Part shown: positions 1,788 to 32,383 of the stretch, piece after piece | Layout: the number at the start of each line of letters is the position of its first letter | How positions within the stretch are numbered: the first letter of the stretch is position 1 | IMG/VR virus record: IMGVR_UViG_3300043137_000155 | Location: 1-37,615 of that record | Source of the DNA: a virus | Length of the DNA stretch: 37,615 nt | Reading direction: 5' to 3' (one strand) | Notes under the pieces: generated by a model | Told to the model about the DNA's origin: nothing | The model's database searches: none | The model's input: only the letters and a program-made list of their open reading frames with translations | Translations under genes and position numbers: made by a program

Positions 1788-4700
1788 TCAGTCTTCTTCC
1801 TTTCCGTAGAACAGGGTTGTCGTGTCCTTAAATACTCGGTCAGCAACACCTGGCGCAGCGCCAGCCGGTGAGAATGGAGTGCTAAGAGCGCCACCGGCCT
1901 TCATGATTTCCCATGCTCCACCAAGATAGTCCTCATCTTCCATTTTCTCTGGTAGTTTCTCTATAGATTTCCAGAACTGTTCAGATATATCCACGAGCGG
2001 ATTTGCAGATGATCGCCAATTGCGAGGCTTGTCCTGTTCCTCTCCTGTAATTTTCTCCGCAGCATAAGCGACCGCTGATGCGATAAAGAACTCAGCCGCA
2101 GCGCCAAGAATGAATAAACCTTGTAACGGGCCAACGAGCGCAGCACGAATGAAGTTATCAACCTCCCATTCTTCGTCGTCGTCCTTAAACATTGAGCGGG
2201 TGACAGCATTCGCGACTTGGAACATCAGCCCAGGAATAACCCAGTAAGCCAAGACCTTTCTCACTACTTCCTCGTTAGTGGATCCGCCACGCCTCCATTT
2301 CATGATTGCTTCTCCGACAAGGCTCAGTTTCTGTTGAGGATCAGAAGAGAACATTGACAGAAGATTAAACACGCCGGTTGCATCATTCTGCATTAGTGAT
2401 CGGCCTGACCAGTTATTTGGTTGAGCCGTTCTAGGCACAGCAATCTCCATTTCCCGTGCCGCGTATTTATGAGCGGCTTCATCACCAACATTTGCATTCT
2501 CTGCTTGCGCTAATCGATCACCGTAGACCATTGCAGCAGAGTAGGATGTCAGCACAGCATCGGCATACTGAGTCGGCATTGATCCATAGAGCAATGCGTT
2601 TTCAACAAGTCGCAAAATTATGTTTTTAGATTTCCCACGGTTCGCTAAAATTTCCCTGATCTCAGGAGTTCCTCCAAGCTCAAGTCGGTTTTGAATGATG
2701 TTAGTATCCCACATCCGACTCCAGTGCTGAATGCCTCTGGCAAATGCCGCAGGCCAACGTGTAATTGAGATTTCGCCCAACGAATAGAACACGCTAGAAA
2801 GCGTCTTGATTGATGTGCCAATATTAAAAGCAAGTGCCTTGAGTGCTATGCCAGATTTGACGTTACGCATCATTCTGGAGGAGTGTATAAGCAACGCTCC
2901 TTTACTGACACCTCGCGCCATCTCTAACTGCACCCATGCAGATACTGCCTGCATTGCCTCGTCACCGTGTTCCGACTGGATTGCCGCACGCACTTCTGGG
3001 TTCAGCATAACGGCTTGAGTATCGCGAAGATATTCAGCCATGTTGATCCAGTAATCCATCTGTGCGAAGTGCGATTGATACACTGCCAACGCGCTTTCGA
3101 TTCTCAGCGATGAAGTCCGCCCACGCCGAGTTTTAACGGCACCAGGGTTTGCTGATTGCGAAACGACATTGGAGTTTAGCGGATCAAGACTTGCTTGATT
3201 GCCTTGATGGTTCTTGAGCAACGGAGCGTAGAACTGAATCTGTGGCATCCGAGTATTGAATAACCGCATGAAGACTTCGTTGGCGGCATCGTATTCGTTC
3301 GCGTATTCCGCACCAAACCATGACAGCCAGTTCTTGGCTTTGTCAGACATGAAATCCTCAAGCTCGGCCTGAGTGATATTGTCATATCCATGGACAGTCT
3401 GTTGATCAAGGATGCCTGGTTGGCGCAATGCCATTGCCATGTAGACCGCTTCCATCTGCGACAATGGAATCTCAATGCGAGTGCCCTTAACCTTGATGCG
3501 CTCAATGGTTAGGTTGCGCTTGCGTGATGTTGGCAGGTTAGACCATGCGTCCATCTCGTCCTCCCACATCTGCGCTTCTTCAGCGGAATAACCAAATGTA
3601 GATGGAGACTTGATAATGCGCTCGACTTCCTCAACAGTCTTCGTGTCCTTCTCTCTAACCTCGCCTTCCATTTTGGTGACTCGACTGCGCTCGACTTTGG
3701 TTTCCATTTTTTCCAATTCGATGTCAAGGCTGATCTTTGACTTGGTGCCGTAGAGGCTACGCATGAAATCACGCAGACTCTTCTTTCGTGCCGCCTGTCG
3801 AGTTTCAAACGCATTCACTCCAAGAATCATCCGCTCATCAAATTGATCAGCAGTCTTATTAGATCGGCCAAAGACTGAAGAGAGCACAAATCGATGTGAA
3901 CCATGCTCGCGAAGGAATCCCTTTATCATGCCCTTTGTGGTGCCCTTCCCTTTGTCCTTGCCTCGTTGCACTGTCGCAGCATTAGCATCGCCAGCAAACG
4001 CATCAGCCTTCGCTTGCTCTACCATTTTGGCGACTTCAGCAGCACGAGCCTCATCCAGCACCTTACGAGCATCTCGACCCTGCTTCATGAGATCTTTAAG
4101 ATACTCGTGCGCTACGTCCATTTCTTCTGCTGTAGTCTGCTTGCCATAGAGATCGCCAAAGATCTCAAGCAATTGACTCTTAGCGAATGCATCGGCGGCA
4201 TCCTCTGAAGTCTGCGCTGATATGATTTCCGCCTCATAGCGTGCCGCTTCCTTGACGGTTTCGTCGTCCGACAGATTCGACATCGCGATGATCGTGTTCA
4301 ACTCGTCCTGTACAGTGACAATGAATTTTGACTTTGGAATATCACCGGCCTTGCCTTTAACCGCAGCGGCTTCAAGCATTTTGTCGAGCCGTTCGCCGTA
4401 ACCTTTCTTGAGGTATTTCTCAATAGCCTTCTCAACCTTCGGCATGCGATCTTCGATAAACCTAAGACGCGCTTCGTCGGATGACAGTTTAGCCAATGTT
4501 GAAATGCTGCCGATTGTGCCGCGAATCTCGGTGGGCATAGACGAAACGATAGCGTCATGCATCTGGATCCAGCCGTTGAGCTTGTCCTTCATCAGTGCCG
4601 CTTTTGCCTGTTCTGGAGTCGTCTCTTTCTCAAGCGACTTTTTCACCCAATCAGGAGTCTTGTCGGTAACTTTGCCAAGCTTCTTGATTCGGCTGGCTTC

Positions 4701-7700
4701 CATCTCTGCAAGCTTGCGCTTTGCAGCACCTGGGCGACCGACATCATAGAGCGAATCAGCCGCTATCTTTTGAGCACGTTTAAGTGCCATCATGCCAATC
4801 TTGAGCTTAACTTCAGGTGATCCCTCAAAGATTGGACGCAATGATTGCTCTATTCGTCCTGTAAAGTCTGATCGGGAGATTGAGAAAGATACAGCATTTG
4901 GATTGTTCCAATTGTCTACTGCTTCTTGAACTTCTTCACGAGTTACGCCCCAAGCTTCAAAAGTATAGTCGTTGCTTGTATTATTTAACGCATTCTCAAA
5001 CTCAGTTACAACGGCACTGAGCGACTGATTTCTTCTGGGTAATACTGGAGTAAATCCTCCATCATTCCCTGTAGTACTGGCACTGTCAGAAACTCCTCCC
5101 CGTGTTCCTTTTTGTCCTTTGCCACCCATAGATCTAGACGATGTCCCTGAGTCGGCCCTAGTTGTTTGCATTGATCCACCGTCCACGCTGCTTTCATTCG
5201 CTTGGCTAGTTCTGACGGCTGTTGATTCTGAGTCTGCTGTGATTTCTGCATAAGCGTTAGGGTTATACGTCATGTATACCAGAGGTGGCTCAACAAGTCC
5301 ATCCCAAGATTGAGTTTCCCATACATGCATTAGATCTTGCATTTTACCAGGCTCTTGATGGTATTGAGGATCAAATGCTAATGTTTTTACTGCTTGGAAC
5401 CCACTGCGAGCATACAATGTTGGCAGCAATCCAAGCGGCTTTTTCTTTGATGCAACAGCATAGCAATCAAGTTGAGTGCCGCCTTCAGCAATAGCTTTTG
5501 CCATAATAAGCGGAAGCACTCCTTGTGCTCCGCCAGTATTATTAACCACACCAACAATGCACCAATCTTTAGTAGGATCACCAACATCGCCATCTTCATT
5601 GTTTGGGCGTTTAAGCGCAAACCATGCATCCATTTCTCCAAGGCGGTAAACCTTCATTTTGCCATCAGATATCAATGACTTAACTTTTTCAAGCGTGTAA
5701 GCAGTTAATGTGACTGCTTCATTTGAATTACGAATAGCGCGAGGAAATTCAGCTAATCCGGCAGCTCCAGCACGATCCATTGTAATCCATTTTTGACCAA
5801 GAGCAGCGACTATGGTTTTAGCTGTAGCTGCATTAGTCTTTACCGTTTGAAGATTATTCCATTCGGTTGCCATATTTGGAGTAATAACTTCATGGTCAAT
5901 AGAAGTTCCTCCATCTACTTTAAGGTGAAATGTGTGAGCGCCAACTTTCTTGCCTTTTCCAAAAAGTTCTGCTGACATCTGTGGCATGCCAATCGAATAA
6001 GGAATAGGCGTGCGGAAAAAGACAACAGCCTTACCTGGAACAAAAGTATTATAACTGCCATGAACAGGCACGCCATAAGCCTCATTAGTCATGCCTTTGC
6101 CTTTAGCATCAAGACCTTCACGCAGTTCTTTTACATCAACTTCAATGAGCGATGTGAGTGAACGTGTTGGAGTTGAATGATAGGAATCGTCACGAGTTAC
6201 TCTTTGAATTTGGCCCATCGGTGGAGCGCCCAAATTCTCTGCTGTTGCTGACGATAATTTTTCAGCAATAAATCCTCGCGCAGGAAAAGTCAAAGGTGTA
6301 ACAAATGCCGTCATTTCTTTCCCACTAAATTTTGTGGGAAACTTTAAAACAGGTGTGATTTCCGATATTGTTTGTTTAGCTGCTTTAATCGCATTCTTCG
6401 CTTTCTTTAAATCTAACGAAGTCTTTTTCTTTATTAAAGAGACATCCAAAGGTTGGATATCAAGCACAACATCTACAACTGGATTACCTTTTTTTGGAGC
6501 GACCTTAACGCCAATAAAACTTTTTTTAATATCTAATGTTCGCGCTTTATCGTCTTCGACTAATTTTTCAAGAAGCGCAGTTTTTTCTTCTTTAGATTTA
6601 AGTGCAGCATATTCATTCTGCGCTTTTACAAGAATAAGAATATCTTCTGCGTGTTTAAGCTTTACGGCATTTGATGAAATTAATGACCCTGCGGCATGAA
6701 TAACTAAAGTGGCAAGATCTTGTTCTTGTTTATCTGTAATCCGTCCTTCATCAACATAGCGTGCCACTTCTGATAGTTTTGATCCAACAACATCAGAGTT
6801 AGACACATGCGCGTCTTCTTCCATAAGGTAAGGTGAAACAAGAAACTTTTCTCTTCCATCTTTCCCAATGTAAATTGCGTCAGTGCGAATTGCTCTATTG
6901 AGTTTTTTTAACCAAAACTCTGGTTTTGCTGAAGCCCATCCAACTTTGCCCATGTATCTAGGATTGACTACAAATCCTGGCCCACCATTGGCGGCAATAT
7001 CAAGAGTGAATTGACCGCCGGCAGCAGTGCGATCTGCCTCCATAACCAGAAACTTTTTATTAACAAAGAACGGATCAAGTATTGACGGCATGCCAGCACG
7101 ATCTGCTAAAATATTAGCGGCAACAGTTTGAACGGAAAGTGAGAACGAAACTTGCCCTTCATCAGCACTACCCATAGACATAGACACACCACCTTCATTT
7201 AGTAGCGCCTGATCTCCAATTGTGTCCTCAATAACAGAATACGATCCATTTGCATTGCGCTCGTAGATTCGATGCGGAATGTCATTGATTGCCAAATTGT
7301 TTGGCGGCGTGATGTATTTGTCGCCACTCCATGTGTCGTCTGGAATTAGCTCAATCATGTGCGTATCAGCATAGCGACCAGAACTTTTGCCGCTCATGAA
7401 CACTGCTCCCTCGTAAGCTTGCTTCGTGTTTTGCCGAGCACGAACTAATCCAGACTCACGCAAATCAGCTAAACCTTCTTCGCCAATAAATCGGTATGCG
7501 CGATCCTTTCGATACAAGATATTGTCACGAACTCCAACGCCATCTCGGCTAGCAATGCGCTCCATCATTGAAGTTGGCTGAACTCTAATCGCTTCGTTGT
7601 ATGCGATATCTTCGGGTGAAGCTATAGCCATTGACATTGTTGTAGATGGCAACACGCCAGAGTCCGCAGCAAGGCCAGCAGCAGTGTCAACAACGGCATC

Positions 7701-10475
7701 TGCGTTGCGATTAGACACATTCAGACCAACGCTCTTTTCAAGCGCATCGATGAAGTCCTGGTTCATGCCATTGGCATCGTAAACCGCTTTGATCTGCGAT
7801 GCTCGGTAAAGGATGTTGAGAGTCTTCTCACCAACTAGGTCGATAGCGTCTTTCAGTTCCATGCCGGCAATGCTCGACTGGAGACTGCCCAGGTAAAGAT
7901 TAAGCGGCATGTCAGAATCAAAGGTCGGACGCTCGACGGCTTTAGCGGTCTGCACATAATAGGACTTCGCGATGTGTGAGAATGCTTCAATGATTTCCAT
8001 GTTGGAAACCTGATCGTCGTCGGCAGTGGCAATCAAGGGCATGTGCTTCTGGCCCATTTGCATAGCTTGCTCTTTCATCTTCGCCTCGACATCTCTGATT
8101 TGTAAGATGAGTTTTGTGCGACTCATCGGATCATTCATCATTCGCTTCACGCCGACCTCTGCGCTTTCCTCAATAAGATCAAGAAGACTGCCGCCGCTAT
8201 AAAGTGTTATGACTCCAGTTGAAATGCCTTCGCGTTGTTCAATTGAATTTGTGCCTAAAATTCGATAGTTCTTATTATCCTTAACTTCAGATTCAAGGGT
8301 AGCATCTTCAAATGAAACATCCTCTGCGGCTCCATCAATTTGGTCTGTCAGTTTAATGCGCTCATCTACCTGAGAAGCAGTTGATGGGAAAAGCTCAGTG
8401 AATGTCTTTGTAAACATATCAAAGTCCATCAAAGCAATATCAAGACCCTGCTTTTCTTGTAAGCTAGTATTCATCGATGTGATGAATTCTTGCTCTGCTT
8501 TTCTAATGCTGGCTTGTCTGTTTTTAACGTAAAGCATCTGCGCTTCATTCGCTTCACTGATGGAATTGAATTGTGCGCTGACACCTGAATCAACGACTTC
8601 GCCTTTTGATCCTCTTAAGATAGGAGTCGTGAACTGATACTTGCCATTGCCAAGGTTTGAAACGGTTCCAAGACCAAATTCTTTTTTGAGCTTGTTGTAA
8701 TACTCAAGAGAGTTAGATGCTTGTGTATTAACCTTTTCTTCAGCTTCTTTAATCTGTTCTGGAGTTGCTTTGTTGGCTTTATCAAAACCTTGTCGAAACA
8801 GTTTATCGACCTCGTTATAATTACCCTTTAATCCTTCGGCTGTAATTTGGTTGGCTAAATCAGGAGAAATGCCACTAGCGACCATGTAATCAGGCGAGGT
8901 CATCAGTGCTCGTGAATTTTTTACGTCTGCAATGGAGATTCTGCCAGCCATTAGAAATGAGATAACAAGAGCAGGGCCAAACGTCTCCTTGGCAATGTCC
9001 GAGATCTTCGGCATACGCTCGTCCCAATCAGCCTTAGCAATACCACTCTCAATTGACCATTCAGTCTGCCACTCAGAAAGCAAATCTTGAGTGACAAGCG
9101 GTGTCACTGTCTGCATGATTTCTTCTGTGATCTCGGTGCCAGTGTTAAGTGAACCACGAATTGCCAAACGAATTGCAGCACTCTTGATGCTCGTGGTTGA
9201 TGCTTTCAACCATTTGTCAATGAATGGAATTTTGATCTTGCCTAGTGGTAGAGCATTAGAAAGAAACTCCTGCCCAGCCATGATCGGCGCAGCAAAAAAC
9301 GCGACTATCTCAGAGTTCTCAAGTGACGCGCCAGCATTAACAGCTTCAATTGTTGCTTCATCCCTAAACTGTCCTGTCATAATAGCAATTGATGCAGGGC
9401 CGTTAATAAATGTAGCAGTCATTAACGGTGCCATGCGTGCAATACCAATGCCGGTATCCTCCCACCAGTTATTGCCTTCAATCGGATTGATCTTGTTTTG
9501 AGCCATCATTCTGATTTGACCGGCTAACACCTGAAGATCTCGACGTTTTGTAGCTAGTCCAGATGTTGCCTTTGCTAAACCTGGAAGGTTCATAGCAGAG
9601 AGTCCAGCTTCCAAGCCACTGTAAGCCATAGACTCAACCATATTGGCTGTGCCTGTTTTTGCTTTTTCAATCTCGCGATCCATTGCAAGCATGATCTTTT
9701 CAAGATAAACACGCTTTTCTTTTGGCGCAGCAGCACCGATTTCGCCGATGGCATTGATCGCAAGCAGACGTTCCTTTGGCGGCAATGGCAATAAGCTTTC
9801 TGCCACTTTCTCAAAAGCGGTGTAAGCACCCTCCGCTTTTGTATCATAACCTTCAATAGTCTTCGCCGCCTGGTCAATGATGGTGCGATATGGCGCAAGC
9901 TTCTGCGTGTATTCCATGTGCAGATCTTGAATCGACTGGTGATAGTCATCAATGCGACCGGCGACCGGCGAGCCAGTTAAGCCGACATCAAATTCACGCA
10001 TTGCACTGTCAGCGGTAAGATCTCGTGCCGCTGCGCCAAATGCAAAGTTGTGAGCATTGTCCTGCGCTTTGTAGTTCTCTCTGACAAGGTTGTAGAACTC
10101 GTCGTTAGTGACGTTCTTCTTTGGCAGTTTAAATACCTGCTGGGCATAGGCATCCTGATAAGCTGGAAGCGTTAGGCTAAAATAATCGACAGGCTTCTTT
10201 TCTTGGCGAGCAATCCAAGCAGTGTTGGCAGCACCTTTCTTGATGTTTGCTATATCTTCAGGCGCTGCTCCAAAGCCAGCCATGATGTCATCATTGATCT
10301 CGACGCCCTCGACTGTATCTGTCGTAAATGCTTTTTTAACGCCTTTATCAATCTTCAAATCTTCAGCTTTAAAATATTCATCAAGGGCAGTTGCCATCTT
10401 GAATTTTTGCATGTCAGGAATAGCTGGATCCTCAATGCCTAAAGCGAATTCCTTTGCCTGTGTTTCGTTAATCAT
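1788..10475 (-). CDS. Giant internal virion / DNA-ejection protein (T7 gp16-like, polyvalent)
   Basis: This single uninterrupted frame of 2895 residues is about 23 percent of the window. It follows the gp14- and gp15-like genes and starts by ATGA overlap, the slot held by gp16 (1318 residues) in T7. From the N-terminus: helical charged region to about 330; hydrophobic helices about 340-415; a possible ADP-ribosyltransferase-like stretch about 985-1080 (YRFIGEEGLADLRESGLVRA); a region with WASAKPEFWLKKLNRAI about 1165; a lysine-rich coiled coil about 1290-1390; a GNAT-like stretch about 1560-1745 ending near LPTLYARSGF; a Ser/Gly linker about 1747-1818; a long helical coil about 1870-2230; a conserved-looking C-terminal domain with IQFYAPLLK and several hydrophobic helices about 2740-2810. 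Segments resembling SFSLS recur near 945, 1108 and 1860, at domain edges. In T7-like phages such proteins are ejected into the host to help DNA entry. The internal domain calls are tentative; the gp16 role rests mainly on synteny. No transglycosylase motif was recognised. Confidence 0.75.
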   Translation of the reverse strand: MINETQAKEFALGIEDPAIPDMQKFKMATALDEYFKAEDLKIDKGVKKAFTTDTVEGVEINDDIMAGFGAAPEDIANIKKGAANTAWIARQEKKPVDYFSLTLPAYQDAYAQQVFKLPKKNVTNDEFYNLVRENYKAQDNAHNFAFGAAARDLTADSAMREFDVGLTGSPVAGRIDDYHQSIQDLHMEYTQKLAPYRTIIDQAAKTIEGYDTKAEGAYTAFEKVAESLLPLPPKERLLAINAIGEIGAAAPKEKRVYLEKIMLAMDREIEKAKTGTANMVESMAYSGLEAGLSAMNLPGLAKATSGLATKRRDLQVLAGQIRMMAQNKINPIEGNNWWEDTGIGIARMAPLMTATFINGPASIAIMTGQFRDEATIEAVNAGASLENSEIVAFFAAPIMAGQEFLSNALPLGKIKIPFIDKWLKASTTSIKSAAIRLAIRGSLNTGTEITEEIMQTVTPLVTQDLLSEWQTEWSIESGIAKADWDERMPKISDIAKETFGPALVISFLMAGRISIADVKNSRALMTSPDYMVASGISPDLANQITAEGLKGNYNEVDKLFRQGFDKANKATPEQIKEAEEKVNTQASNSLEYYNKLKKEFGLGTVSNLGNGKYQFTTPILRGSKGEVVDSGVSAQFNSISEANEAQMLYVKNRQASIRKAEQEFITSMNTSLQEKQGLDIALMDFDMFTKTFTELFPSTASQVDERIKLTDQIDGAAEDVSFEDATLESEVKDNKNYRILGTNSIEQREGISTGVITLYSGGSLLDLIEESAEVGVKRMMNDPMSRTKLILQIRDVEAKMKEQAMQMGQKHMPLIATADDDQVSNMEIIEAFSHIAKSYYVQTAKAVERPTFDSDMPLNLYLGSLQSSIAGMELKDAIDLVGEKTLNILYRASQIKAVYDANGMNQDFIDALEKSVGLNVSNRNADAVVDTAAGLAADSGVLPSTTMSMAIASPEDIAYNEAIRVQPTSMMERIASRDGVGVRDNILYRKDRAYRFIGEEGLADLRESGLVRARQNTKQAYEGAVFMSGKSSGRYADTHMIELIPDDTWSGDKYITPPNNLAINDIPHRIYERNANGSYSVIEDTIGDQALLNEGGVSMSMGSADEGQVSFSLSVQTVAANILADRAGMPSILDPFFVNKKFLVMEADRTAAGGQFTLDIAANGGPGFVVNPRYMGKVGWASAKPEFWLKKLNRAIRTDAIYIGKDGREKFLVSPYLMEEDAHVSNSDVVGSKLSEVARYVDEGRITDKQEQDLATLVIHAAGSLISSNAVKLKHAEDILILVKAQNEYAALKSKEEKTALLEKLVEDDKARTLDIKKSFIGVKVAPKKGNPVVDVVLDIQPLDVSLIKKKTSLDLKKAKNAIKAAKQTISEITPVLKFPTKFSGKEMTAFVTPLTFPARGFIAEKLSSATAENLGAPPMGQIQRVTRDDSYHSTPTRSLTSLIEVDVKELREGLDAKGKGMTNEAYGVPVHGSYNTFVPGKAVVFFRTPIPYSIGMPQMSAELFGKGKKVGAHTFHLKVDGGTSIDHEVITPNMATEWNNLQTVKTNAATAKTIVAALGQKWITMDRAGAAGLAEFPRAIRNSNEAVTLTAYTLEKVKSLISDGKMKVYRLGEMDAWFALKRPNNEDGDVGDPTKDWCIVGVVNNTGGAQGVLPLIMAKAIAEGGTQLDCYAVASKKKPLGLLPTLYARSGFQAVKTLAFDPQYHQEPGKMQDLMHVWETQSWDGLVEPPLVYMTYNPNAYAEITADSESTAVRTSQANESSVDGGSMQTTRADSGTSSRSMGGKGQKGTRGGVSDSASTTGNDGGFTPVLPRRNQSLSAVVTEFENALNNTSNDYTFEAWGVTREEVQEAVDNWNNPNAVSFSISRSDFTGRIEQSLRPIFEGSPEVKLKIGMMALKRAQKIAADSLYDVGRPGAAKRKLAEMEASRIKKLGKVTDKTPDWVKKSLEKETTPEQAKAALMKDKLNGWIQMHDAIVSSMPTEIRGTIGSISTLAKLSSDEARLRFIEDRMPKVEKAIEKYLKKGYGERLDKMLEAAAVKGKAGDIPKSKFIVTVQDELNTIIAMSNLSDDETVKEAARYEAEIISAQTSEDAADAFAKSQLLEIFGDLYGKQTTAEEMDVAHEYLKDLMKQGRDARKVLDEARAAEVAKMVEQAKADAFAGDANAATVQRGKDKGKGTTKGMIKGFLREHGSHRFVLSSVFGRSNKTADQFDERMILGVNAFETRQAARKKSLRDFMRSLYGTKSKISLDIELEKMETKVERSRVTKMEGEVREKDTKTVEEVERIIKSPSTFGYSAEEAQMWEDEMDAWSNLPTSRKRNLTIERIKVKGTRIEIPLSQMEAVYMAMALRQPGILDQQTVHGYDNITQAELEDFMSDKAKNWLSWFGAEYANEYDAANEVFMRLFNTRMPQIQFYAPLLKNHQGNQASLDPLNSNVVSQSANPGAVKTRRGRTSSLRIESALAVYQSHFAQMDYWINMAEYLRDTQAVMLNPEVRAAIQSEHGDEAMQAVSAWVQLEMARGVSKGALLIHSSRMMRNVKSGIALKALAFNIGTSIKTLSSVFYSLGEISITRWPAAFARGIQHWSRMWDTNIIQNRLELGGTPEIREILANRGKSKNIILRLVENALLYGSMPTQYADAVLTSYSAAMVYGDRLAQAENANVGDEAAHKYAAREMEIAVPRTAQPNNWSGRSLMQNDATGVFNLLSMFSSDPQQKLSLVGEAIMKWRRGGSTNEEVVRKVLAYWVIPGLMFQVANAVTRSMFKDDDEEWEVDNFIRAALVGPLQGLFILGAAAEFFIASAVAYAAEKITGEEQDKPRNWRSSANPLVDISEQFWKSIEKLPEKMEDEDYLGGAWEIMKAGGALSTPFSPAGAAPGVADRVFKDTTTLFYGKEED

Positions 10476-12094
10476 TTGGATTTAGTCGGTGAGTTTAATT
10501 CTTTCTCTTTAGCCAGCACTGTTGGAACAACCTGCCGCGCTCTATTCATCAGGTCTGCATAATTACCAGATGGCGACTGTTGGTTGAACATAGATGCGTC
10601 TATGTCCCTTTCATCAGTAAGTCTTGCGGCACCAACCTTAATGCCTCGTGAAGCATATACGTCCATGTAGATTTTTTGCAATGCCGGCCAAGTCTGTCTT
10701 TCTGGCGGCAGTTTACTGTAGATGTCTTCAATCTCCAATTCCATTTGATGTTGCTTCATCAAAGTGTCACTGCGCTTTTTGTAGTCTTCTGGTTTCTTGT
10801 CGTCACCTGGATCTCCAAAAAACCCACCCTGACGGGATTCAGTTAACGTCTGATGAATTACGCTAGAATGCTTTGAATATCCATCTGGAGCACCTTTTTT
10901 TAAAGCTTCATTAAATTGATCGGTTAATGGCAATGTCATTGTTGGGTCAAACTTTTTCAACCTAGCAATCAAGCTAGCGATTTCAATCTGACCAGTATTT
11001 TCAGGGTCTTGATTTTTATCGTATGATCTGATTAAATTGGTAGCCCTTGAATAAATAATATCTGCTGATGATTTATCAGTAGGAGCGGGATTGATAAAGA
11101 TTTTTTCAAGTTCTGTTTGCTGACTTTTATCCATATAAATGTAATATGGTTGCACTTGCTCGGCATTGTTAATTGAGCCATCAAGAACCTTATCAACAAT
11201 GTTTTTTTGTTCTCCCTTTTGGTAATCAATAAGAACATTTTCAGCCAAGTTTGTTAACTGGCTTCGATCTTCTTCTGAAATCTCTGGCAAATAATTTCGA
11301 TTTTTTAATTTTAAGATATGCTGTTTAGGGTCGGCATATCTTAGATCTGAGTCTTCTCTGAAAAGTTTTGTTCTTTCATTGCCTTTAAGTGCCAATCCAA
11401 AATTAACTGGAGTTATTGCTCCAGCCTTTTTTGCTTCTTCTAACATTTCAGGAATTGCTTTAATTGCTTCTGGATCTCCTTTATTTGCAGCCTCCATTGT
11501 TGCAGTAAGATCTTGTCTCAAGTCTTGTTGTTTCTGTTGAGTTGTTTTGTTTAAAATTCCATCAACTTGAGTCCCAGGAAGGACTGATCGCGCTGCCTCT
11601 GCCGCAGCGGCAGCCTCGTCATATTTTTTAGCATTAATCAAAGATTCGATTGAATTTATCACCCTAGCCTCGGACTGCTTAAACACATCAGCCTGCACAC
11701 GAATCGACCCGTTAGTGCTCCAGTTGGAAAGCTTGCTCTCTAGTTGCAGTCGAGCCTGTGGCGTGAGCGCCATCGATTTGGTATCGTTGGCAACCTTGGT
11801 TGATAGCTCGCTCCATTTAGCTGCCCAGTTGGCATCATCGTTCATGCCTTCGGGTGACCTCTGGTAGTCGAGGAACTGCTTGTCGGCATCGTTCATCGAC
11901 AGAGTGGCAGTCGTGACATTGCTGATGTCATCCGCCTTGTTCTTCATCTCAATCATCTTGAACCCAGCTTGGCCGATATTGGATAAGCCTTCACCGAGTG
12001 CTGCGTTGGTTACCGCAGGAAGATTCGGTGTCTTGATCGTTGCGTTGCCTGTGGCTTGTGCCGTTGGGCTTTGAAGGATGGGTATGCGTGCCAT
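10472..12094 (-). CDS. Internal virion protein (T7 gp15-like)
   Basis: This 540-residue, highly charged and helical protein has many Q/K/E-rich segments and no TM helix. I chose the ATG at 12094 (MARIPILQSPTAQATGNATI) because it lies 1 nt after the TAA of the upstream gene, while the longer frame only adds residues inside that gene. The N-terminal IPILQSP and the following Ala/Gly-rich helix are common starts for podoviral internal core proteins. It ends by ATGA overlap with the giant ejection protein. In the gp14-gp15-gp16 series it would form the ejected core or trans-envelope channel. The assignment rests on order, length and composition rather than a catalytic motif. Confidence 0.7.
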   Translation of the reverse strand: MARIPILQSPTAQATGNATIKTPNLPAVTNAALGEGLSNIGQAGFKMIEMKNKADDISNVTTATLSMNDADKQFLDYQRSPEGMNDDANWAAKWSELSTKVANDTKSMALTPQARLQLESKLSNWSTNGSIRVQADVFKQSEARVINSIESLINAKKYDEAAAAAEAARSVLPGTQVDGILNKTTQQKQQDLRQDLTATMEAANKGDPEAIKAIPEMLEEAKKAGAITPVNFGLALKGNERTKLFREDSDLRYADPKQHILKLKNRNYLPEISEEDRSQLTNLAENVLIDYQKGEQKNIVDKVLDGSINNAEQVQPYYIYMDKSQQTELEKIFINPAPTDKSSADIIYSRATNLIRSYDKNQDPENTGQIEIASLIARLKKFDPTMTLPLTDQFNEALKKGAPDGYSKHSSVIHQTLTESRQGGFFGDPGDDKKPEDYKKRSDTLMKQHQMELEIEDIYSKLPPERQTWPALQKIYMDVYASRGIKVGAARLTDERDIDASMFNQQSPSGNYADLMNRARQVVPTVLAKEKELNSPTKSK

Positions 12095-12095
12095 A

Positions 12096-12719
12096 TTATG
12101 ATTTAATTGGTGCGCCAGAAGCGGATGCTCCACCGGCAGGAGCTTTGCTTGGACGAGTGGTGAATCCTGAGTATGCGTTCATTGCAGTGCCAGCAAGATT
12201 GGAAACAAGCTGCCCAGCCGCTTGACTCTTAATAGCGGCGGATTGCTGCCTACCCATGTCCATAATCGACTGCCCTTCATAGGCCAATTGACGCTGAGAG
12301 AGATCTGCCATGTATTGCTGATCGCTGAGTTCGATCTGCTGCTTGGCCCATGTATCAGCCTCAAGCGATAGACTACTGCCTGTGCCCATTAACGCTCCGC
12401 TTGAAGCCATTGCTGCCTGCTGTTGCGCCCTGAATCGCGCCTGCTCTGTTGCTGCTCGACGTTGGTTCTCCTGTTCTTGTTGTGCCTGGCGTTGCTGCTC
12501 CTGGCCGATAGCCTTGGCTTGAGCACTAGCATTGAGTTCTGCCTGCTTTGCTGCGGTCTGTGCAGATTTATATGACATGACAGAACCAGTCACAGAAGCA
12601 GCGGTTACTGCCAGTAATATGGGAATCTCAAAGCCAGTATTACATGGCGGAGTTCTCAACCATCCAAAGTTGGAGCAATTTAGCGGAAGGAAATCAAGGC
12701 AGTCTTGATGTGATTTCAT
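12096..12719 (-). CDS. Internal virion protein (T7 gp14-like), start uncertain
   Basis: The certain part starts near EIPILLAVTAASVTGSVMSY, an N-terminal hydrophobic helix. A long Gln/Ala coiled coil follows (QEQQRQAQQEQENQRRAATE), then LSLEADTWAKQQIELSDQQY and a Gly/Ser/Pro-rich tail. This matches gp14-type core proteins of T7-like phages. The start is a problem. The ATG at 12719 used here adds 30 odd residues and overlaps the upstream gene by 26 nt without an SD. A TTG at 12659 is an alternative. An out-of-frame ATG lies just before the CNTGFEIP codons, where related proteins often begin with Met-Cys. It lies directly between the gp13- and gp15-like genes. Confidence 0.65.
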   Translation of the reverse strand: MKSHQDCLDFLPLNCSNFGWLRTPPCNTGFEIPILLAVTAASVTGSVMSYKSAQTAAKQAELNASAQAKAIGQEQQRQAQQEQENQRRAATEQARFRAQQQAAMASSGALMGTGSSLSLEADTWAKQQIELSDQQYMADLSQRQLAYEGQSIMDMGRQQSAAIKSQAAGQLVSNLAGTAMNAYSGFTTRPSKAPAGGASASGAPIKS

Positions 12720-13122
12720 AGGTGATCTGAGTGCTCGTTGTTGGTGATACATTCCAGCCGTCAATTTTGGCAAATTGAGCAAGCCGCTTTATGCAGTGAG
12801 TTCTGATAAATTGATAATTCAATGGGTTGCCTTCACAGTCTACGAGATTGGTTAAGAATTCTTTAATCGTGCGCCACATGATCTGCCATGCCGCCATCGA
12901 TGTCTTAAAGCTACTATTAGGACGGGTGACAAAATTATCAACCATTGCTATTGGGACATCAAACAAAAGGTAGACCCAAGATGCAGCACAGGGATCACCG
13001 GCATCATCGGTAACAATAAACCCGTTTTTGCTGAGAAATGCAGGATGGAACTGCATATCTCTCGCCTTCGCCCATTCGGCCACGGTATCAAAGTCATCTG
13101 GAGTGTAGGCGCGGATGTTCAT
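12694..13122 (-). CDS. GNAT-like protein (T7 gp13 position)
   Basis: This 142-residue protein starts MNIRAYTPDDFDTVAEWAKA, the beta1-alpha1 opening of a GNAT acetyltransferase fold. A strand pair follows (GFIVTDDAGDPCAASWVYLL), and RLAQFAKIDGWN stands where the usual YERLGF helix-strand sits. A clear acetyl-CoA loop (RxxGxG/A) is not obvious, so the fold may be structural rather than catalytic. T7 gp13, also between gp12 and gp14 and required for virion morphogenesis, has a comparable fold. The ATG at 13122 follows the upstream TAG by 1 nt and has AGGAG about 12 nt before it, so I prefer it to a start 39 nt upstream. Confidence 0.65.
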   Translation of the reverse strand: MNIRAYTPDDFDTVAEWAKARDMQFHPAFLSKNGFIVTDDAGDPCAASWVYLLFDVPIAMVDNFVTRPNSSFKTSMAAWQIMWRTIKEFLTNLVDCEGNPLNYQFIRTHCIKRLAQFAKIDGWNVSPTTSTQITYEITSRLP

Positions 13123-13123
13123 G

Positions 13124-16100
13124 CTAGAGTCCAGCTCCTGATGTGCCGTCGATTTCAACATCCAATATCATGCCGGTTAGATTGAATGGGAGTGGGTGCC
13201 GTGATGCGATCACGATATCCAAGCAGTTGTTCCAGTCGTGATTGACTACGTCTGGCAGAGTCTGGCCGGTGACGTAGCCTGTAGTCGTTGCGCTCAGTGA
13301 TGGTGAGATCGGGAACGCATCAATGTTCGTCGTGTTGATTCGGGTGCTGTAGGTGTAATTGGCATCAGCCAATCGATTCCAGACCTGCCCGTAGAATGAA
13401 CGGAATAAACGGAACGCCGCACGAGCGACTCTCCATTTACGCATTTGAGCGGTTCCATCGCGTAACTGCACCTCAACCCTGTTTGGGATAATGTAAGCGG
13501 TGTATGGTAGGCCCACGTTCATTGGAGCCGCTACTGAAGAAAGGGCAAAGGTTACGTTTGTGGCTCCAGCGGTAGCTTCAATAGGTTCTCCTGACGATCC
13601 GACAGATGTGGTGCCAAAGATTAGTGATCTGCTTGTCAGGTTTGTATTACCTGAAACATTAAAAATTGATGTCGTTGTTCCTGTCGGTGTTAGTATGCTG
13701 TAGCAATCACAGAAGAATCCAGCCTTGCCAGTAGCATGCTGGGTTAGTGATGCAGTCGCATAGTTAATGTCAGACGATGTAACTGCGGCAATCATAACTG
13801 AGCCATCAATTGACTCAAGATTGCTAATAGTGTCATTTTTTCTACTTGTTAGAAAAATTAACGAATCAGCCGCAGTCGTTGCACTGTAAAGCGTGCAAAG
13901 CGACAGAATCTTGTCTCCAGTAAATGTGCGGTGAGAGTGCCAGGCTGTGACTGAATTTTCGCGATCATAGGTAAATCCACTCCATGAACCATCAGCATGG
14001 ACAAGCCACAAGATAGGGTCAGGCGACTGTGAATAAGCCATGTATTGCACAGGTGATCTACTTGGTATGTGCTCCGCTAGAAGCGTCATATCTGGCGCAG
14101 AATAGCCATCCTTCTCAAAGACATAAGCAAACTCACGCAAACGGTCGTCCCGCGTAAGCCAGAGCAGGGAATCGCCAGAAAGCACCGGCTGGAGATTCGA
14201 CGAGCCATATCGGCTCCACCTGCGGAGGCGGACGTTGGACGGAGTCAATGCCGAATCGGTATCGCCGGTGTCCATCGTCCACTCTTCACCGCTCGTGCCG
14301 ATGACCATTGTGCGTTTAAATGACGCTAGCCATTGAATCTCGTTTGTCTGAGTTGCTGCGAGAGTGACATCAAGGCCAGACGTATCAAATGCGCCTGGTA
14401 AGAAAGTATAGAAATCGTCAGTTTGGCTTCCCCAAATTCGTGTTGGCTCAGTAGCCGTGGACGCAAAGAATAACCGCTGATCATGGAATGCCAACGTGCG
14501 AGGATAGCCACGATCTACTGAGAATGCCGCTTTACGGTAAATAGGGAAACTGATTCCAAGCACTTCATTTGGAATCAATGAATCTGATGCTAGTTTTGGC
14601 ACTCCAATAAATTGCCACGGGACAAATGCTGAATAGCTATTTATCAGGAATGGGACGTTTAGAATGCCACTTAGAGGCTCAATGGTCATCTGCGCGAGGC
14701 TAGACGCTGCGGTCGCGCGAATTGTGACTGCGCGATACCAAGCACCAGTGTTTGGAGCCTTTCCAGTGTAAACAATAGAACCTTCTTGAAGGTGATTGAT
14801 ATACCACTCGCGCACGCTTGAGTAGTTGACTTGATCAAACGATTCTTCAATGCGGACTACTGTTCCAACAGGCGCGGATCCACTTGTCCAAGTTGTCCTA
14901 AAAATGTATTCGTCTTGAATGAATACGGATGAACTTGTGATTGTTGCAAGCGAAGCACTTCCCATTAATTCATTGGCAAATCTCTTGATCGATGTTGGCG
15001 ACAATAACCAATTTGCTCCAATTTCGTTGGCACTAAACACGGTGCTGGAACTGCTGATAAGCCTGTAATCAGTAATTTGTAGACCAGTGCTTTTGTATTT
15101 TACCAAGACCCATGTCGGCGCAGTTCCATCAGGAGCGTTTGTTGCGCTTGCCGCTACATTAGAAGTGGACACATAATTGCTTGCTTTGTATTCAACAATC
15201 ACGCCAACAGGATATGTCGCGCCAATATTCCATGACGAACTGTATGTAGCCTCAGTCCAATCTGCTATTTTAAATATACCACCAGTTGATGTTGTCGCCG
15301 AATTGTAAACAAATGTGCGAAGATATGAAGAATTAGTTTGAACATACCAAGCACCAGTTCCTGCTGTGTAAGTCCCACCTAAAGTAGTAGCATACTGAAG
15401 TAAAAATGTATTAACACCATTGACTGTGACCAAACCTTGTCCATTGGCATTTATAGCACCACCAACGCCATAAACTGTCACTGAATCACCAGTGCTCAAT
15501 CCATGACCGTTTGATGTTATTTGAACAAATCCTGTAACTAATGATGCTCCTGTAATTGCTTTGATAATTGGTAAAGTGACAATATCACCAAGTGAGTAAG
15601 TATCGGCAAAGCCTTGACTCCAATTATCTGCATTGTATTGAATGCGTAGAGTGTCGCCATTCGATGTGGCATCTAAGACAGGCGCGAATTGAAACGGCAC
15701 ATTCTCAAATGTCCATGTGCCAGCACTTGTTCTTGTCAATCTCTTTGGATGCTTTGTCGGACATGTTAAAAACATCACATTATTCAACTGAACAAAGTGC
15801 AGTAATGAAATTTCCTCAGCGGTGTAATCAGTAGTTAATGGTGACGGTGAATCTACAGTAAACACACCGGCTGAATACGAATAAATGACAATCGAATTAA
15901 CTTTAAATCCAATAACATAGTTAACCGTGGTGCTGCGCCTAAATGGAATGATTCGCAAGATATCGGCATAAGTTCCAGCAAGAGTAACTCCAAAGCGCAT
16001 TCCTGGCCTTTTGAACGCTCCGCCGTAAGACCTAACCATAAAGTTCTCAAGCATGCGGCACCCTGTCGCATACTTCTCGGCATCGGTTCTGCCGTCCATA

Positions 16101-25138: not shown

Positions 25139-25362
25139 AATTTCGGTAATGGCATCCAATATTTTAGTTCGTCCATCGTAGCTTGTTCATTCTCAAACCA
25201 ATAGTCGATTTTTTCATCTACCATTGACTGAGCGTTCAGAGATACGGTCACCCATTTCTCATCGTAACTGTTCCAGACTGCGACTAACGGCCACGGGTAG
25301 CCAAAGTCTCCGAGAATCATTATCCCATCTTTGGGAGCGGTTTCAGATGTTTTCCATTTCAT
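25126..25362 (-). CDS. DUF551-like small phage protein
   Basis: This 78-residue protein has the DUF551 pattern: W near the start, APKDGIMILGDFG, LVAVWNSYDEKWVTV, and the closing YWMPLPKL. These proteins are common in tailed phages and prophages, and their function is not known. It starts by ATGA overlap with DnaB and ends 13 nt inside the small terminase gene in another frame, tying replication and packaging genes into one transcript. Confidence 0.75.
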   Translation of the reverse strand: MKWKTSETAPKDGIMILGDFGYPWPLVAVWNSYDEKWVTVSLNAQSMVDEKIDYWFENEQATMDELKYWMPLPKLCLR

Positions 25363-26633
25363 ACGGGTATCTCCTTAAACGTAAATGTCGGCCCAGAAAA
25401 AGCAAGTGGCAGTGTCCAGTGCCGTGAGCCACCTCGGTTTTTGTCGCAGAATAGGTTACGCAGCGTGTCATCGGTGCCATCGCCGGTCTTGTTTTCCACC
25501 TTTGAAATCATAAACACACCGTCCGCATCCTGGCCAATTGCTCTCGACTCGCGGAGTTTTCCAGCATCGTTGAGCTGGGACGCTGTAAGGATGTGGGTGC
25601 CAGTGCGTTTAGCGACCTGCTTCATGCGCCGTGAGATGCGTGCGATGATCTCCTCCCTTGTCGCTCCCTTTCGACCTTCGTCTTCCATGAGTTGCAGGTA
25701 GTCCACCACTGCCACATCATAGCCTCCATGCTCAATGTCTGAAAGGATGTCAGATGCGCTCGCGGTATCGGTATTGACTAGATCGCAACCAAGCTCCGAA
25801 AGCTGCCTGATTGACCGTAAAAGCATCTCCTGCTGTGCTCGGCTTATAAGACCGCTGTAAAGCGCTCCGTTATCGACTCCGCTGTCCTCACACAGGAGAC
25901 GCATTGTCTGCTCCGTATTGGGCATTTCCAGCGAATACCAAGCCACTCTAGCGCCGGCAACTAGTGCGTTTCTCGCGCAATTCTGCATTATCGCAGATTT
26001 TCCATCACTCGGAAGTCCTGCGAACACTGTCACCCTGCCCTTTTGGAGTCCGCCGCATTTGGCATCAATCGTTGGGAAGCCAGTTGTAAAACCAGGTATC
26101 GCTCCGCCACGTTTCATTCGCTCCTCAATTTCGTCCATCGTTTGAGCTATAGCATCTTTGATCGTGATGCGTGCCAACTTGCGAACCACGGTATTCTCGA
26201 CTGCATCCATAGCCTCTTGCGCTTTGGCGATGGCATTGGCAATCGGTAACGACTCATCTGCAAATGCTGCCAGTGCTTTTTGGTGAGCTTCGATGTTTCG
26301 GCGTGCGAGGTATTTATCCTCAACAATGCTTTTGTATTGAGGGTAATTACTGGCATGCGGGACAAAGCAATAAAGCTCGGAGATGTAAGCGGCTCCACCG
26401 ACTGCATCCAACTCACCCTTGTTGCGGAAATGCTGAGTAAGTAGCGGTGCATCAATCGGTGAACCTGTATCGTAAAGCGTTACAAGTCCGGTGAAGATTT
26501 TCTTGTGAGCATCAGAGTGAAATGCGGAGACGTTGAGCGTGTTTCGAGCATCTCCAATGCGGTTAACAGGGTCTTGTAAGAAGCAGGAGAGCAGAGAGCT
26601 TTCGGCTTCGTTGGAATGAGGTAAGGTTAGCAT
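25359..26633 (-). CDS. dnaB: Replicative DNA helicase, DnaB family
   Basis: This 424-residue protein contains both DnaB domains. The N-terminal helical domain has NEAESSLLSCFLQDP and ISELYCFVPHASN. The RecA-like motor has Walker A GLPSDGKS (206-213), EMPNTEQTMRLL, Walker B VAVVDYLQLM, ASQLND, and the arginine-bearing LRESRAIGQDADGVFMI near the end. It unwinds the replication fork as a hexamer and recruits host primase and polymerase. I chose the ATG at 26633, which overlaps the upstream stop; a GTG 12 nt upstream is in frame. It lies directly after a DUF1376 gene, the likely loader or initiator. Confidence 0.92.
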   Translation of the reverse strand: MLTLPHSNEAESSLLSCFLQDPVNRIGDARNTLNVSAFHSDAHKKIFTGLVTLYDTGSPIDAPLLTQHFRNKGELDAVGGAAYISELYCFVPHASNYPQYKSIVEDKYLARRNIEAHQKALAAFADESLPIANAIAKAQEAMDAVENTVVRKLARITIKDAIAQTMDEIEERMKRGGAIPGFTTGFPTIDAKCGGLQKGRVTVFAGLPSDGKSAIMQNCARNALVAGARVAWYSLEMPNTEQTMRLLCEDSGVDNGALYSGLISRAQQEMLLRSIRQLSELGCDLVNTDTASASDILSDIEHGGYDVAVVDYLQLMEDEGRKGATREEIIARISRRMKQVAKRTGTHILTASQLNDAGKLRESRAIGQDADGVFMISKVENKTGDGTDDTLRNLFCDKNRGGSRHWTLPLAFSGPTFTFKEIPV

Positions 26634-27376
26634 ACAGATACCCACCTTCCGTTTACTGGGCCTAATTGTATTCCACCTGTAACGCTAGGCATTGGCTGTT
26701 TAGCAACAATGGCAATCGGTTTGTCTGCTGCTGCTTTGCCTAACCAGTTGAGAAAGAATCGACGTGATGGCGCTTTGTGATTCTTGATGCACCATGCACA
26801 AGCTTTCGAGTATTCCACATCAACATTGATCCCTTGATTGTTTGGATCAGTCTTGAGTGATGCCATCCACTCTTCGTCTGACATTTCAACTTTGACCTTT
26901 TTCTTAGAGTCTATAGAACTCTTACTGGCTAATGGTTTATGGTTATTGGTTATTGGTTTATGGTTGGTTGACGTTCCGTTGACGTTCTGTTGCAACGGTA
27001 ATTCAACGACCGTTGAACACTCGTTGAACGCCTGTTGACTATTTGTAACGCTAATGCGCTTGGCCGCTGATGCCTTTCCAGCCTTGCTTGCTTGTTCACG
27101 TTGAGCCTGATATGACTCCAACTCACGCTCAATTCGATTGTGAATGAGTAGCCCTTCCTGTTCTTTAAAGAATAAACGCGCTACTGATGAAACTGCATCG
27201 CGTTCAGCTTTGGAATTTGCTCGCACTATGCGGCAAAGCATTGCGTGATCAGCAGGAAGTCGCCGCTCGGTCGAGTAGTAGGAGTCCATTAGCAAACGAT
27301 AAACGCCATGTTCAACGATGCTTAAATGGGCTGTGTCGCGGTTATAATCGCCAACATGATGAGAGTAGTAGTGCAT
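26627..27376 (-). CDS. DUF1376 replication protein (probable helicase loader/initiator)
   Basis: This 249-residue protein has a clear DUF1376 domain at residues 1-100: MHYYSHHVGDYNRDTAHLSI, EHGVYRLLMDSYYSTERRLP and FFKEQEGLLIHNRIERELE. A basic linker with an AGKASAAKR motif follows, then a low-complexity region and a C-terminal part with YSKACAWCIKNHKAPSRRFF, as in DnaT/DnaD-like replication proteins. The gene pair DUF1376-DnaB is a recurrent phage replication module. It starts by TAATG overlap with the HNH gene. Host interaction is inferred, not seen. Confidence 0.82.
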   Translation of the reverse strand: MHYYSHHVGDYNRDTAHLSIVEHGVYRLLMDSYYSTERRLPADHAMLCRIVRANSKAERDAVSSVARLFFKEQEGLLIHNRIERELESYQAQREQASKAGKASAAKRISVTNSQQAFNECSTVVELPLQQNVNGTSTNHKPITNNHKPLASKSSIDSKKKVKVEMSDEEWMASLKTDPNNQGINVDVEYSKACAWCIKNHKAPSRRFFLNWLGKAAADKPIAIVAKQPMPSVTGGIQLGPVNGRWVSVC

Positions 27377-27828
27377 TACTTTGCTCCTTTCTTTGAGTTA
27401 CAACTTTTGCATAAGGTTTGAAGGTTACTAGGCCTATTGTCGCCGTGACGTTTCACAGGAATAATATGATCAATGCAAAGCTTTTCATTGCTGCCACAAT
27501 TTTTGCATTTTAATCCGTCTCTTTGAAAAATAAGACGCCTTAAAGACAAGGCGGAAATGGCAACATTGGCTTTCTTTCTTCTGACAAGATATGTTTTTTC
27601 TATTGCATCTAAAGCATCCGCCATGAGGCGAGCTGTCTTGTTTTTTTGAGAATACAGAATCTCTAATTGCTCAAGAGTTTTACTGATCTCAGCATCTACT
27701 TCACGACATGCAAAATTTGCGCGTGTAATAGCTAAATCCAACTCTGGCAAATGCTCATCAAATTTTTCTATTTTATAGATTTGAGAATGTAAATCTGCGC
27801 GTGTTAGTCTTAAATTTTCTTTATTCAT
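27376..27828 (-). CDS. HNH endonuclease
   Basis: This 150-residue protein has a helical first part, then an HNH nuclease at about residues 95-150: two zinc-binding pairs (KCKNCG and LCKSCN), the catalytic CIDHIIPVKRHGDN and the NLQTLC helix. I chose the ATG at 27828; a TTG 6 nt upstream is also in frame. In phages, small HNH genes are either free-standing homing nucleases or packaging-associated enzymes. This one sits among replication genes, far from terminase, which favours a homing type. The 135-nt structured gap lies directly in front of it. Confidence 0.85.
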   Translation of the reverse strand: MNKENLRLTRADLHSQIYKIEKFDEHLPELDLAITRANFACREVDAEISKTLEQLEILYSQKNKTARLMADALDAIEKTYLVRRKKANVAISALSLRRLIFQRDGLKCKNCGSNEKLCIDHIIPVKRHGDNRPSNLQTLCKSCNSKKGAK

Positions 27829-27835
27829 AAACAAG

Positions 27836-30968: not shown

Positions 30969-31207
30969 GGCTTCACCTCCCGCGCTTTGAGCATGGCGTC
31001 TGCAAATACGTAGGCTGTAAGTGAGTCACTAGTGATACCCGCGTCAGGTCTTTGTAAGCTAACCAATCCAACTAAAGCCTGACCTGCGAACCAGTCGCGA
31101 AGGGTCATGCCTGTAAATTTGCGAAAGTCTATGACTTCTCCGTTGCATCGAATTTGCTCTTCGCAGGGAAACGCTGGGCCTCCGTCATTGATTTGTGGTG
31201 TGTTCAT
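30965..31207 (-). CDS. Conserved small phage protein (GMTLRDWFAGQAL type)
   Basis: This 80-residue protein has the pattern INDGGPAFPCEEQIR, then FTGMTLRDWFAGQALVGLVS and an Ala-rich end (YVFADAMLKAREV). This signature is common among small proteins in phage recombination regions, often near ERF/RecT/SSB genes. The function is unknown. It overlaps both neighbours by ATGA. Confidence 0.7.
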   Translation of the reverse strand: MNTPQINDGGPAFPCEEQIRCNGEVIDFRKFTGMTLRDWFAGQALVGLVSLQRPDAGITSDSLTAYVFADAMLKAREVKP

Positions 31208-32382
31208 GATTCTAGTTGGTTATTCTTTACGATCTCAAAGCTTCCTTTGCTGGTTTCGGTAGCGCCATGCAGCACCTCGTCGACCAGGTTATCAAGTGCC
31301 TTGCCTTTAGCGTTTGTGCTCTGTTTGATCAGAGTCTTGACGGCACCGAGAGGGATAGAGCATTCGGCCGCGAACGCATCGCCAGTGACACCGTGCGTTG
31401 ATAGCCGGCTAAATACGGTGGTGACATCTGACACGCTCCGGCGACCTTTGCGCTCGCGCAGAGAGTAGCCATCAATCTCACCTGCTGCAATGCGCCGACG
31501 AAGTTCCAAGTCATGCGCGACAAGGAACCACTCCATGAATTTACGGCCTCCTTCTTGAATGCGGATCAGCATCTCGTTAGACATGGATGTGTGATCACCC
31601 ATGCGAGCAAAAATCTGAGCCTTAACCTGCTCGTCTGTGCCTGAGATCGTGTCTGGAACGATGGCATCTGTAACTGACAACGCAGCGGCCTGAAACGCAG
31701 GGCAGTGCATCTTTGCTTTGCACCATTTGCAGTGATTGCCGGCCACCGCATCTGCTGCTGTAGCCTGCTCTGCCGTGTTGAGTGTGCTGATTAGTTTAGC
31801 CTCAGCTTGGCGCAGCGTCTCAAGGTCGTATTGCGCGACCGTAGGTTTACCTGCCCAAGGCTGAACGATTGCAACGGTTGCCGAGGTAATCGGTCGATAG
31901 AGCGACACGAGCGCAGCCAGAGCCATGAGCTGGTGGTTATCGACCGCATCAGCGGTATCACCTCGACCCGTCTTATAGTCGATGATTAGCGCATGACTGT
32001 CTTCAATAACAATAAGATCGGCTTGACCAGTAAAACGCAGCGATTGCTGGGCTTTGTTGCTGACAACTACAGCCCGACCAAAATGTGTTAGGCCAAGCCG
32101 CACTTCTGTCAGCATTTCGGTTAAGAACACCTCGTTATCAATGTGCCTATCAATCAACGCATCAGCTTGGGCTTTGCACATATCGTGCGTCTGCTCCTCG
32201 TCGCTTGATAGCGTGCTAATATCAGCCTCGCCAGCCAGCACCGCATGGATGCGTGTTCCTGATGCCGCTGCTGCGCTCTCGGTGTCTGCAATGCCTAGTG
32301 CCATCTGATGGCTCGGAGGACATTCAACAAGGCGCTCAAATGCGCTTGCTGATGGTAATCCGTAACGTGGGTCAGTAGTCAT
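31204..32382 (-). CDS. PD-(D/E)XK nuclease with Fe-S cluster motif (DUF2800/Cas4-like)
   Basis: This 392-residue protein has the RecB/Cas4 nuclease layout. It carries C21, H46 in GTRIHAVL, the motif II-III pair FTGQADLIVIEDSHALIIDY with D122 and D135, then K137 of DYKTG, a QLMALAAL helix near 151, and CKWCKAKMHC with C218, C221 and C227. One early Cys plus CxxC-x5-C is the iron-sulfur arrangement of AddB and Cas4. The C-terminal part includes LRERKGRRSVSDVTTVFSRL. As the neighbour of RecT it is likely the resecting exonuclease of a two-protein recombination system. I chose the ATG at 32382, 1 nt past the RecT stop. Confidence 0.82.
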   Translation of the reverse strand: MTTDPRYGLPSASAFERLVECPPSHQMALGIADTESAAAASGTRIHAVLAGEADISTLSSDEEQTHDMCKAQADALIDRHIDNEVFLTEMLTEVRLGLTHFGRAVVVSNKAQQSLRFTGQADLIVIEDSHALIIDYKTGRGDTADAVDNHQLMALAALVSLYRPITSATVAIVQPWAGKPTVAQYDLETLRQAEAKLISTLNTAEQATAADAVAGNHCKWCKAKMHCPAFQAAALSVTDAIVPDTISGTDEQVKAQIFARMGDHTSMSNEMLIRIQEGGRKFMEWFLVAHDLELRRRIAAGEIDGYSLRERKGRRSVSDVTTVFSRLSTHGVTGDAFAAECSIPLGAVKTLIKQSTNAKGKALDNLVDEVLHGATETSKGSFEIVKNNQLES

Positions 32383-32383
32383 A

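Follow-up and report, generated by a model that had tools for sequence, protein, structure and literature searches.

The locus at positions 1788-10475 of the window, by which is meant the whole viral stretch of 37,615 bases taken from an IMG/VR virus record, raises the question of what kind of virion component a single protein of 2895 residues may be. The minus strand, on which the parts of this gene cluster given below lie, carries here an uninterrupted frame of 2895 codons. Upstream and on the same strand, in podovirus order, are genes for the portal (phrog_332), the major capsid protein (phrog_3437) and tail-tubular proteins (phrog_394 and phrog_376), followed by a small gene that is also conserved, an internal virion protein of gp14 type (12096..12782; phrog_418, 4.8e-10; the frame opens with TTG and its true start may be later), a gp15-like protein of 553 aa without cysteine (10472..12133), whose synteny directly upstream of the giant frame is kept in relatives, and the giant frame itself. 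This placement right behind the gp14- and gp15-like genes supports the gp16 position assigned by the first-pass annotation, and the stated excess over twice the T7 length is also correct (2895 aa vs 1318 aa for T7 gp16). The small gene (12694-13161), encoding 155 aa and located between the tail-tubular B and gp14-like genes, is retained at this place in close relatives and in some distant ones; its N-terminus is GNAT-like by reading (MNIRAYTPDDFDTV...), without a Pfam match.

The giant protein has no Pfam match at a meaningful E-value, and neither PHROGs, NCBIfam models nor PDB sequences gave a match. A search of 50,697 phage records yielded no near DNA match to the window, no cultured phage was found to encode this giant protein, two scans of genome contigs detected no relatives as prophages, and a plasmid scan returned one weak match, to the GNAT region described below. 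When viral contigs were scanned with the whole protein and with the C-terminal and N-terminal alignments, about fifty loci emerged. Relatives with window-like backbones have full-length frames of 1933-3305 residues, apart from one split frame (L018), and synteny with gp15-, gp14- and tail-like genes upstream holds in close relatives and fades with distance.

Comparison of these proteins revealed two conserved ends and an exchangeable middle. The N-terminal backbone (residues 1-940, or to about 950; 7656..10475) is 78-97% identical in all close relatives, and the C-terminal backbone (residues 1864-2895; 1791..4886), containing a hydrophobic segment that may be membrane-inserting (residues 2775-2806; 2058..2153), is 85-92% identical in close relatives and about 20-25% in distant ones. 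Residues 950-1863 are replaced wholesale among close relatives whose ends stay shared, as expected from the modular middle proposed earlier. At the DNA level the window and L002 are 96.6% identical through codon 941 and become alignable again from codon 1863, while for L004 the values are about 78% as far as codon 941 and 98.5% from codon 1095 onward. The N-terminal backbone is itself uneven against L004: identity falls from 97% over codons 1-209 to 78% over codons 225-941, and this drop appears from the alignment to be a further recombination point, outside the cassettes.

The middle of the window protein consists of two cassettes. Cassette A (residues 947-1096, core 958-1096; 7188..7637) is mobile: it is 80-86% identical in L007, with 88% DNA identity that is confined to codons 958-1096, despite C-terminal backbones that share only about 22%. 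Downstream of cassette A, residues 1249-1270 of L007 include LEENGQKVDAG, which resembles the ends of the ADP-ribosyltransferase (ART) cassettes of L002 and L005 and is possibly a recombination scar. Cassette B (residues 1099-1863; 4887..7181) is 98% identical in L004, vs about 78% for the backbone there, and 43-51% identical in L024 and L053-L059, vs about 24% for the backbones. The dN/dS ratios are 0.14-0.15 for the cassettes (0.15 for cassette A) and 0.07-0.13 for the backbones; synonymous changes dominate in both, so the cassettes are maintained, under purifying selection. Elsewhere in the window, a DUF2800/PD-(D/E)XK nuclease gene adjoins a RecT-like gene (31204-33265, minus strand), and this recombination pair might have a part in exchanging cassettes; an HNH endonuclease gene (27376-27834, minus strand; PF01844, 3.5e-12) lies near a DnaB-like helicase gene (25359-26645).

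A scan of 28 middles against Pfam (E 0.05) identified ART-PolyVal in 15, DUF7178 in 7, and MuF_C and Kinase-PolyVal in one each; the middle of the window had none. The best ART-PolyVal match reached 1.8e-22, and several others were under the curated cut-off. The ART cassettes have a constant head (TPAQDAEYLAA...AQxMVDEAA), a variable core and a constant tail (IKSADPVT...GNVIPLSQRFN..SPDI[NR]FS). The occurrence of ART-PolyVal, Kinase-PolyVal and MuF_C domains at this position in relatives supports the polyvalent-protein character suggested for this gene, and in the close relatives examined the region does not occur as separate non-virion genes. The L018 frame, which is divided into 1683 and 1379 codons, was weighed as a case of such genes and rejected, since the split is caused by an in-frame TAG (L018 8398-8429) within a DUF7178 cassette and is therefore attributable to nonsense, readthrough or sequencing error.

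The module edges cluster at a short peptide, [F/Y/M]-S-[I/L/M/V], corresponding to the 'SFSLS' segments noticed at domain edges in the first-pass annotation. It occurs in the window as MSMA (residues 947-950; 7626..7637), MSMG (residues 1099-1102; 7170..7181), FSLS (residues 1111-1114; 7134..7145) and FSIS (residues 1864-1867; 4875..4886), of which MSMG coincides with the DNA breakpoint against L004, and FSIS marks the same junction to the C-terminal backbone in L002, L003 and L004. In 31 middles the motif was observed 137 times vs 38.8 expected by composition (3.5x), and it is depleted in the conserved backbones (20 observed vs 57 expected). Among 291 alignment breakpoints, 22.7% lie at most 5 residues from a motif vs 4.6% at random, and 38.5% at most 15 residues away vs 12.4%; since the set includes related proteins, neither motif nor breakpoint counts are independent. 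The joint is not limited to this protein family: a viral scan yielded 517 stretches related to the ART cassette, and in the 80 retained, with a median frame of 2665 residues, [FYM]S comes next after 53 of 84 cassette tails.

The joint could be a mere recombination scar or a flexible linker favoured by exchange, with no recognition partner. This possibility has only slightly less than an even chance, given the short common DNA stretches found at the junctions of the window, L002, L003, L004 and L005. However, the motif serines use both TCN and AGC codons, at background proportions across lineages, which argues that the conserved unit is the peptide and not one DNA word. The flavour of the motif also tracks the protein, being more alike within one polypeptide than expected both in the aromatic residue (F vs Y, p 0.002) and in the fourth residue (S/G vs R, p 0.001).

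The same observations, namely a position at module edges, a consistent flavour per protein and conservation as a peptide, could be explained by a protease site at which the protein would be divided into individual effectors, inside the head or in the host, formerly by its own zincin-like site. In three distant relatives (L019, L037 and L050), and only in them, HExxH is present at one column of the N-terminal backbone, and polyvalent zincins have been proposed to self-process (PMC5512222). The window has EESAE in this column (residues 769-773; 8157..8171), which fits an eroded zinc site of an ancestral polyvalent-type metallopeptidase, a reading drawn from the motif only, as no family model supports the domain. 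Processing is nevertheless unlikely. The N4 virion RNA polymerase, which has HExxH, is packaged uncut (PMC5512222), and the similarity of motifs within a protein may in part be due to relatedness or to joints having been duplicated. For the window phage in particular, zincin autoprocessing was rejected, because the site is eroded and no protease gene was recognised in the ten ORFs scanned.

The contents of the window cassettes were examined by structure prediction. Cassette B comprises an N-terminal domain without an identified fold, a lysine-rich coil (residues 1248-1380; 6336..6734; 17% Lys, long helices in the model), a GNAT domain, a Ser/Gly linker and a short helical end. In its AlphaFold2 model (pLDDT 68.9), residues 1554-1747 (5235..5816) adopt a GNAT acetyltransferase fold, matching 1y9k with a VIA-align Z of 11.8 over 141 residues (rmsd 3.0); the GNAT superfamily accounted for almost all of the 50 entries listed. 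The best Foldseek match to the model was also a GNAT, 9cr5 (E 0.042, prob 0.97), viral GNATs were matched too, and Microbacterium phage Caron has a MuF-like minor capsid protein whose tail is a weak match to the domain (E 4e-4). The following linker (residues 1748-1815; 5031..5234) is predicted to be disordered from its composition and a pLDDT below 50; residues about 1748-1830 contain 18% S, 14% G and 12% T. The GNAT-like part, the lysine-rich coil and the Ser/Gly linkers of the earlier reading are thus all recovered, the linker being Thr-rich as well, and the model holds a clear GNAT fold and not only helical channel folds. The N-terminal half of cassette B had no convincing PDB match when the model was searched as a whole cassette.

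The ADP-ribosyltransferase-like part of the earlier reading, which most likely corresponds to cassette A, could not be confirmed. Against the ART-PolyVal (PF18760) profile and its H-Y-D/E motif cassette A was negative: it had no Pfam match at E 5 and no match in PHROGs, NCBIfam or tblastn against phages, hhalign against the ART cassettes of relatives gave a probability of 2.7%, and the AlphaFold2 model (pLDDT 37) was unusable. Its candidacy as an ART was accordingly set aside.

The cassettes might also belong to the same virion protein as structural fillers, or as membrane or peptidoglycan adaptors, and not as host-acting enzymes. The CoA-loop region of the window GNAT reads NNTGGAQGVLP, which is G-rich and by eye not canonical vs Q/R-x-x-G-x-G/A, and on account of this loop (GGAQGVL) the domain may lack activity; no fold was identified for cassette A or for the first half of cassette B, and the eroded protease site in the backbone suggests that inactive remnants do occur. 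This explanation is nonetheless quite improbable in view of the recognisable ART-PolyVal, kinase and MuF_C domains that occupy the slot in relatives, and of the His- and Tyr-containing motifs (HGT..., WGLYFA) kept across seven ART cassettes. That the gene is a prediction artefact, through fusion of ORFs or chimeric assembly of a single metagenomic record, is practically dismissed, being already contradicted by many independent contigs with full-length frames and the same ends and by dN/dS well below 1 on either side of the joints.

Amino acid composition provides a further line of evidence. The giant protein of the window contains two cysteines, both within the GNAT domain. Counts over 30 relatives gave 0 cysteines in 47,734 backbone residues and 13 in 30,669 residues of the middles. 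At 22 loci the giant proteins contain 9 cysteines in 58,305 residues, and none occurs in the 13,060 residues encoded just upstream, by the gp15-like gene or the one in its position, against 303 in 33,452 (0.9%) for other same-strand ORFs of at least 200 aa; giant frames with an ART cassette from other contigs lack cysteine in 36 of 61 cases. With proteins of T7, N4 and P22 as yardsticks, tape-measure proteins being left out, the proven ejected proteins T7 gp15 and gp16, N4 gp50, gp51 and gp52, and P22 gp7, gp20 and gp16 have no cysteine and T7 gp14 has one, while the P22 portal, coat, terminase and tailspike have some. Host and composition also matter, since the portal and capsid proteins of a high-GC Microbacterium phage are likewise cysteine-free.

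The simplest reading is that cysteine is avoided because the protein must be unfolded and cross the oxidising periplasm, and that the cassettes are cysteine-poor because they travel with the ejected protein under the same constraint. The exclusion is indirect evidence that the cassettes may take the ejection route, as in the proven ejected proteins; it implies a route that avoids cysteine and not arrival in the cytoplasm. This near-total exclusion is presented here as new; it was not found stated in the literature searched, which does not in itself prove newness. A broader generalisation is offered only tentatively, and may well prove wrong: that cysteine exclusion is near-absolute in ejected proteins, that cassettes become cysteine-poor once loaded, so that cysteine content would be a readable signature of delivery across the Gram-negative envelope, and that the FS[ILMV] joint would be a generic loading point across many giant phage proteins.

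Taken as a whole, the data are probably best explained if the gene of this short-tailed phage encodes a giant ejection (internal virion) protein that carries a replaceable rack of effectors between conserved ends. Both ends would most likely be the gp16-position part of the DNA-delivery apparatus, and the rack in the window would consist of cassette A and of cassette B with its domain of unassigned fold and its GNAT-fold acetyltransferase. By the most likely route, the protein would be packaged into the head alongside its gp14- and gp15-like partners and threaded through the tail and envelope along with the DNA, after which the cassettes would act on proteins of the host during the first minutes of infection. 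Cassettes are gained, lost and exchanged as units between the conserved [FYM]S[ILMV] joints. Such swapping suggests how small phages might vary the proteins that they deliver first. The cysteine signature would offer a simple sequence test for phage proteins crossing the envelope, and the joint would allow giant uncharacterised proteins to be divided into foldable, assayable units. Elsewhere, ARTs are on record for about 3% of podoviruses only (PMC9503650), against half of the scanned members here, so the ART-bearing cassette family would be an important store of enzymes directed against the host.

Among known systems, T7 gp16 shares with the window protein the gp14-gp15-gp16 gene order, a hydrophobic segment and the lack of cysteine (outside the GNAT domain), but T7 gp16-like homologs have 609-1337 aa (PMC8954989) vs 2895 aa here. 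Homology to T7 gp16 was undetectable by hhalign against the single T7 sequence (probability 0.2-0.4%) or as a PDB sequence match, and the T7 transglycosylase (peptidoglycan-hydrolase) domain, which can move to gp15 (PMC8954989), had no Pfam match in the whole protein or the N-terminal alignment; the protein should therefore not be filed in the T7 gp16 family. The N4 virion RNA polymerase (gp50, 3500 aa) is likewise a giant, ejected, multidomain, enzyme-bearing protein with zero cysteine, and its HExxH zincin motif (PMC12633501) is kept in three relatives here and lost in the window. Homology to it was not found by hhalign (probability 4% and 0.3%), and no polymerase was recognised in the window protein. 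A stretch with E..EE..Q aligns N4 gp50 325-410 with residues 375-476 of the N-terminal backbone (hhalign E 0.011, probability 4%), which is not significant alone.

MuF polymorphic toxins (PMC5576092) are also virion proteins with a variable effector, and MuF_C occurs in one relative, but the effector there is C-terminal, whereas the cassettes here are internal, with no neighbouring immunity gene identified; the MuF domain had no Pfam match in the whole protein or the N-terminal alignment. If the preferred explanation is right, podoviruses of ~38 kb hold a delivery frame fixed and swap their cargo by cassette, like polymorphic toxins.

The closest parallel is with the polyvalent proteins (PMC5512222), which are giant multidomain phage proteins encoded among virion genes, as the synteny shows for this gene, and share the slot repertoire of ART-PolyVal, Kinase-PolyVal, MuF_C and GNAT beside other modules, as well as a remnant zincin. 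Unlike known polyvalent proteins, the window cassettes match no Pfam polyvalent family, and of the disparate activities the window polypeptide has one enzyme fold, GNAT, by the model, the ART, kinase and MuF_C domains being recognised in relatives. A further difference is that swappable cassettes are set here within a conserved gp16-position ejection frame; the joint and this placement are not described in PMC5512222, whose text has no 'linker', 'gp16' or 'internal virion'. We infer from these comparisons that the gene encodes a polyvalent-type ejection protein with swappable cassettes, which would be packaged, delivered and enzymatically active on host targets, and which joins two separate literatures, those on ejection machines and on polyvalent effectors.
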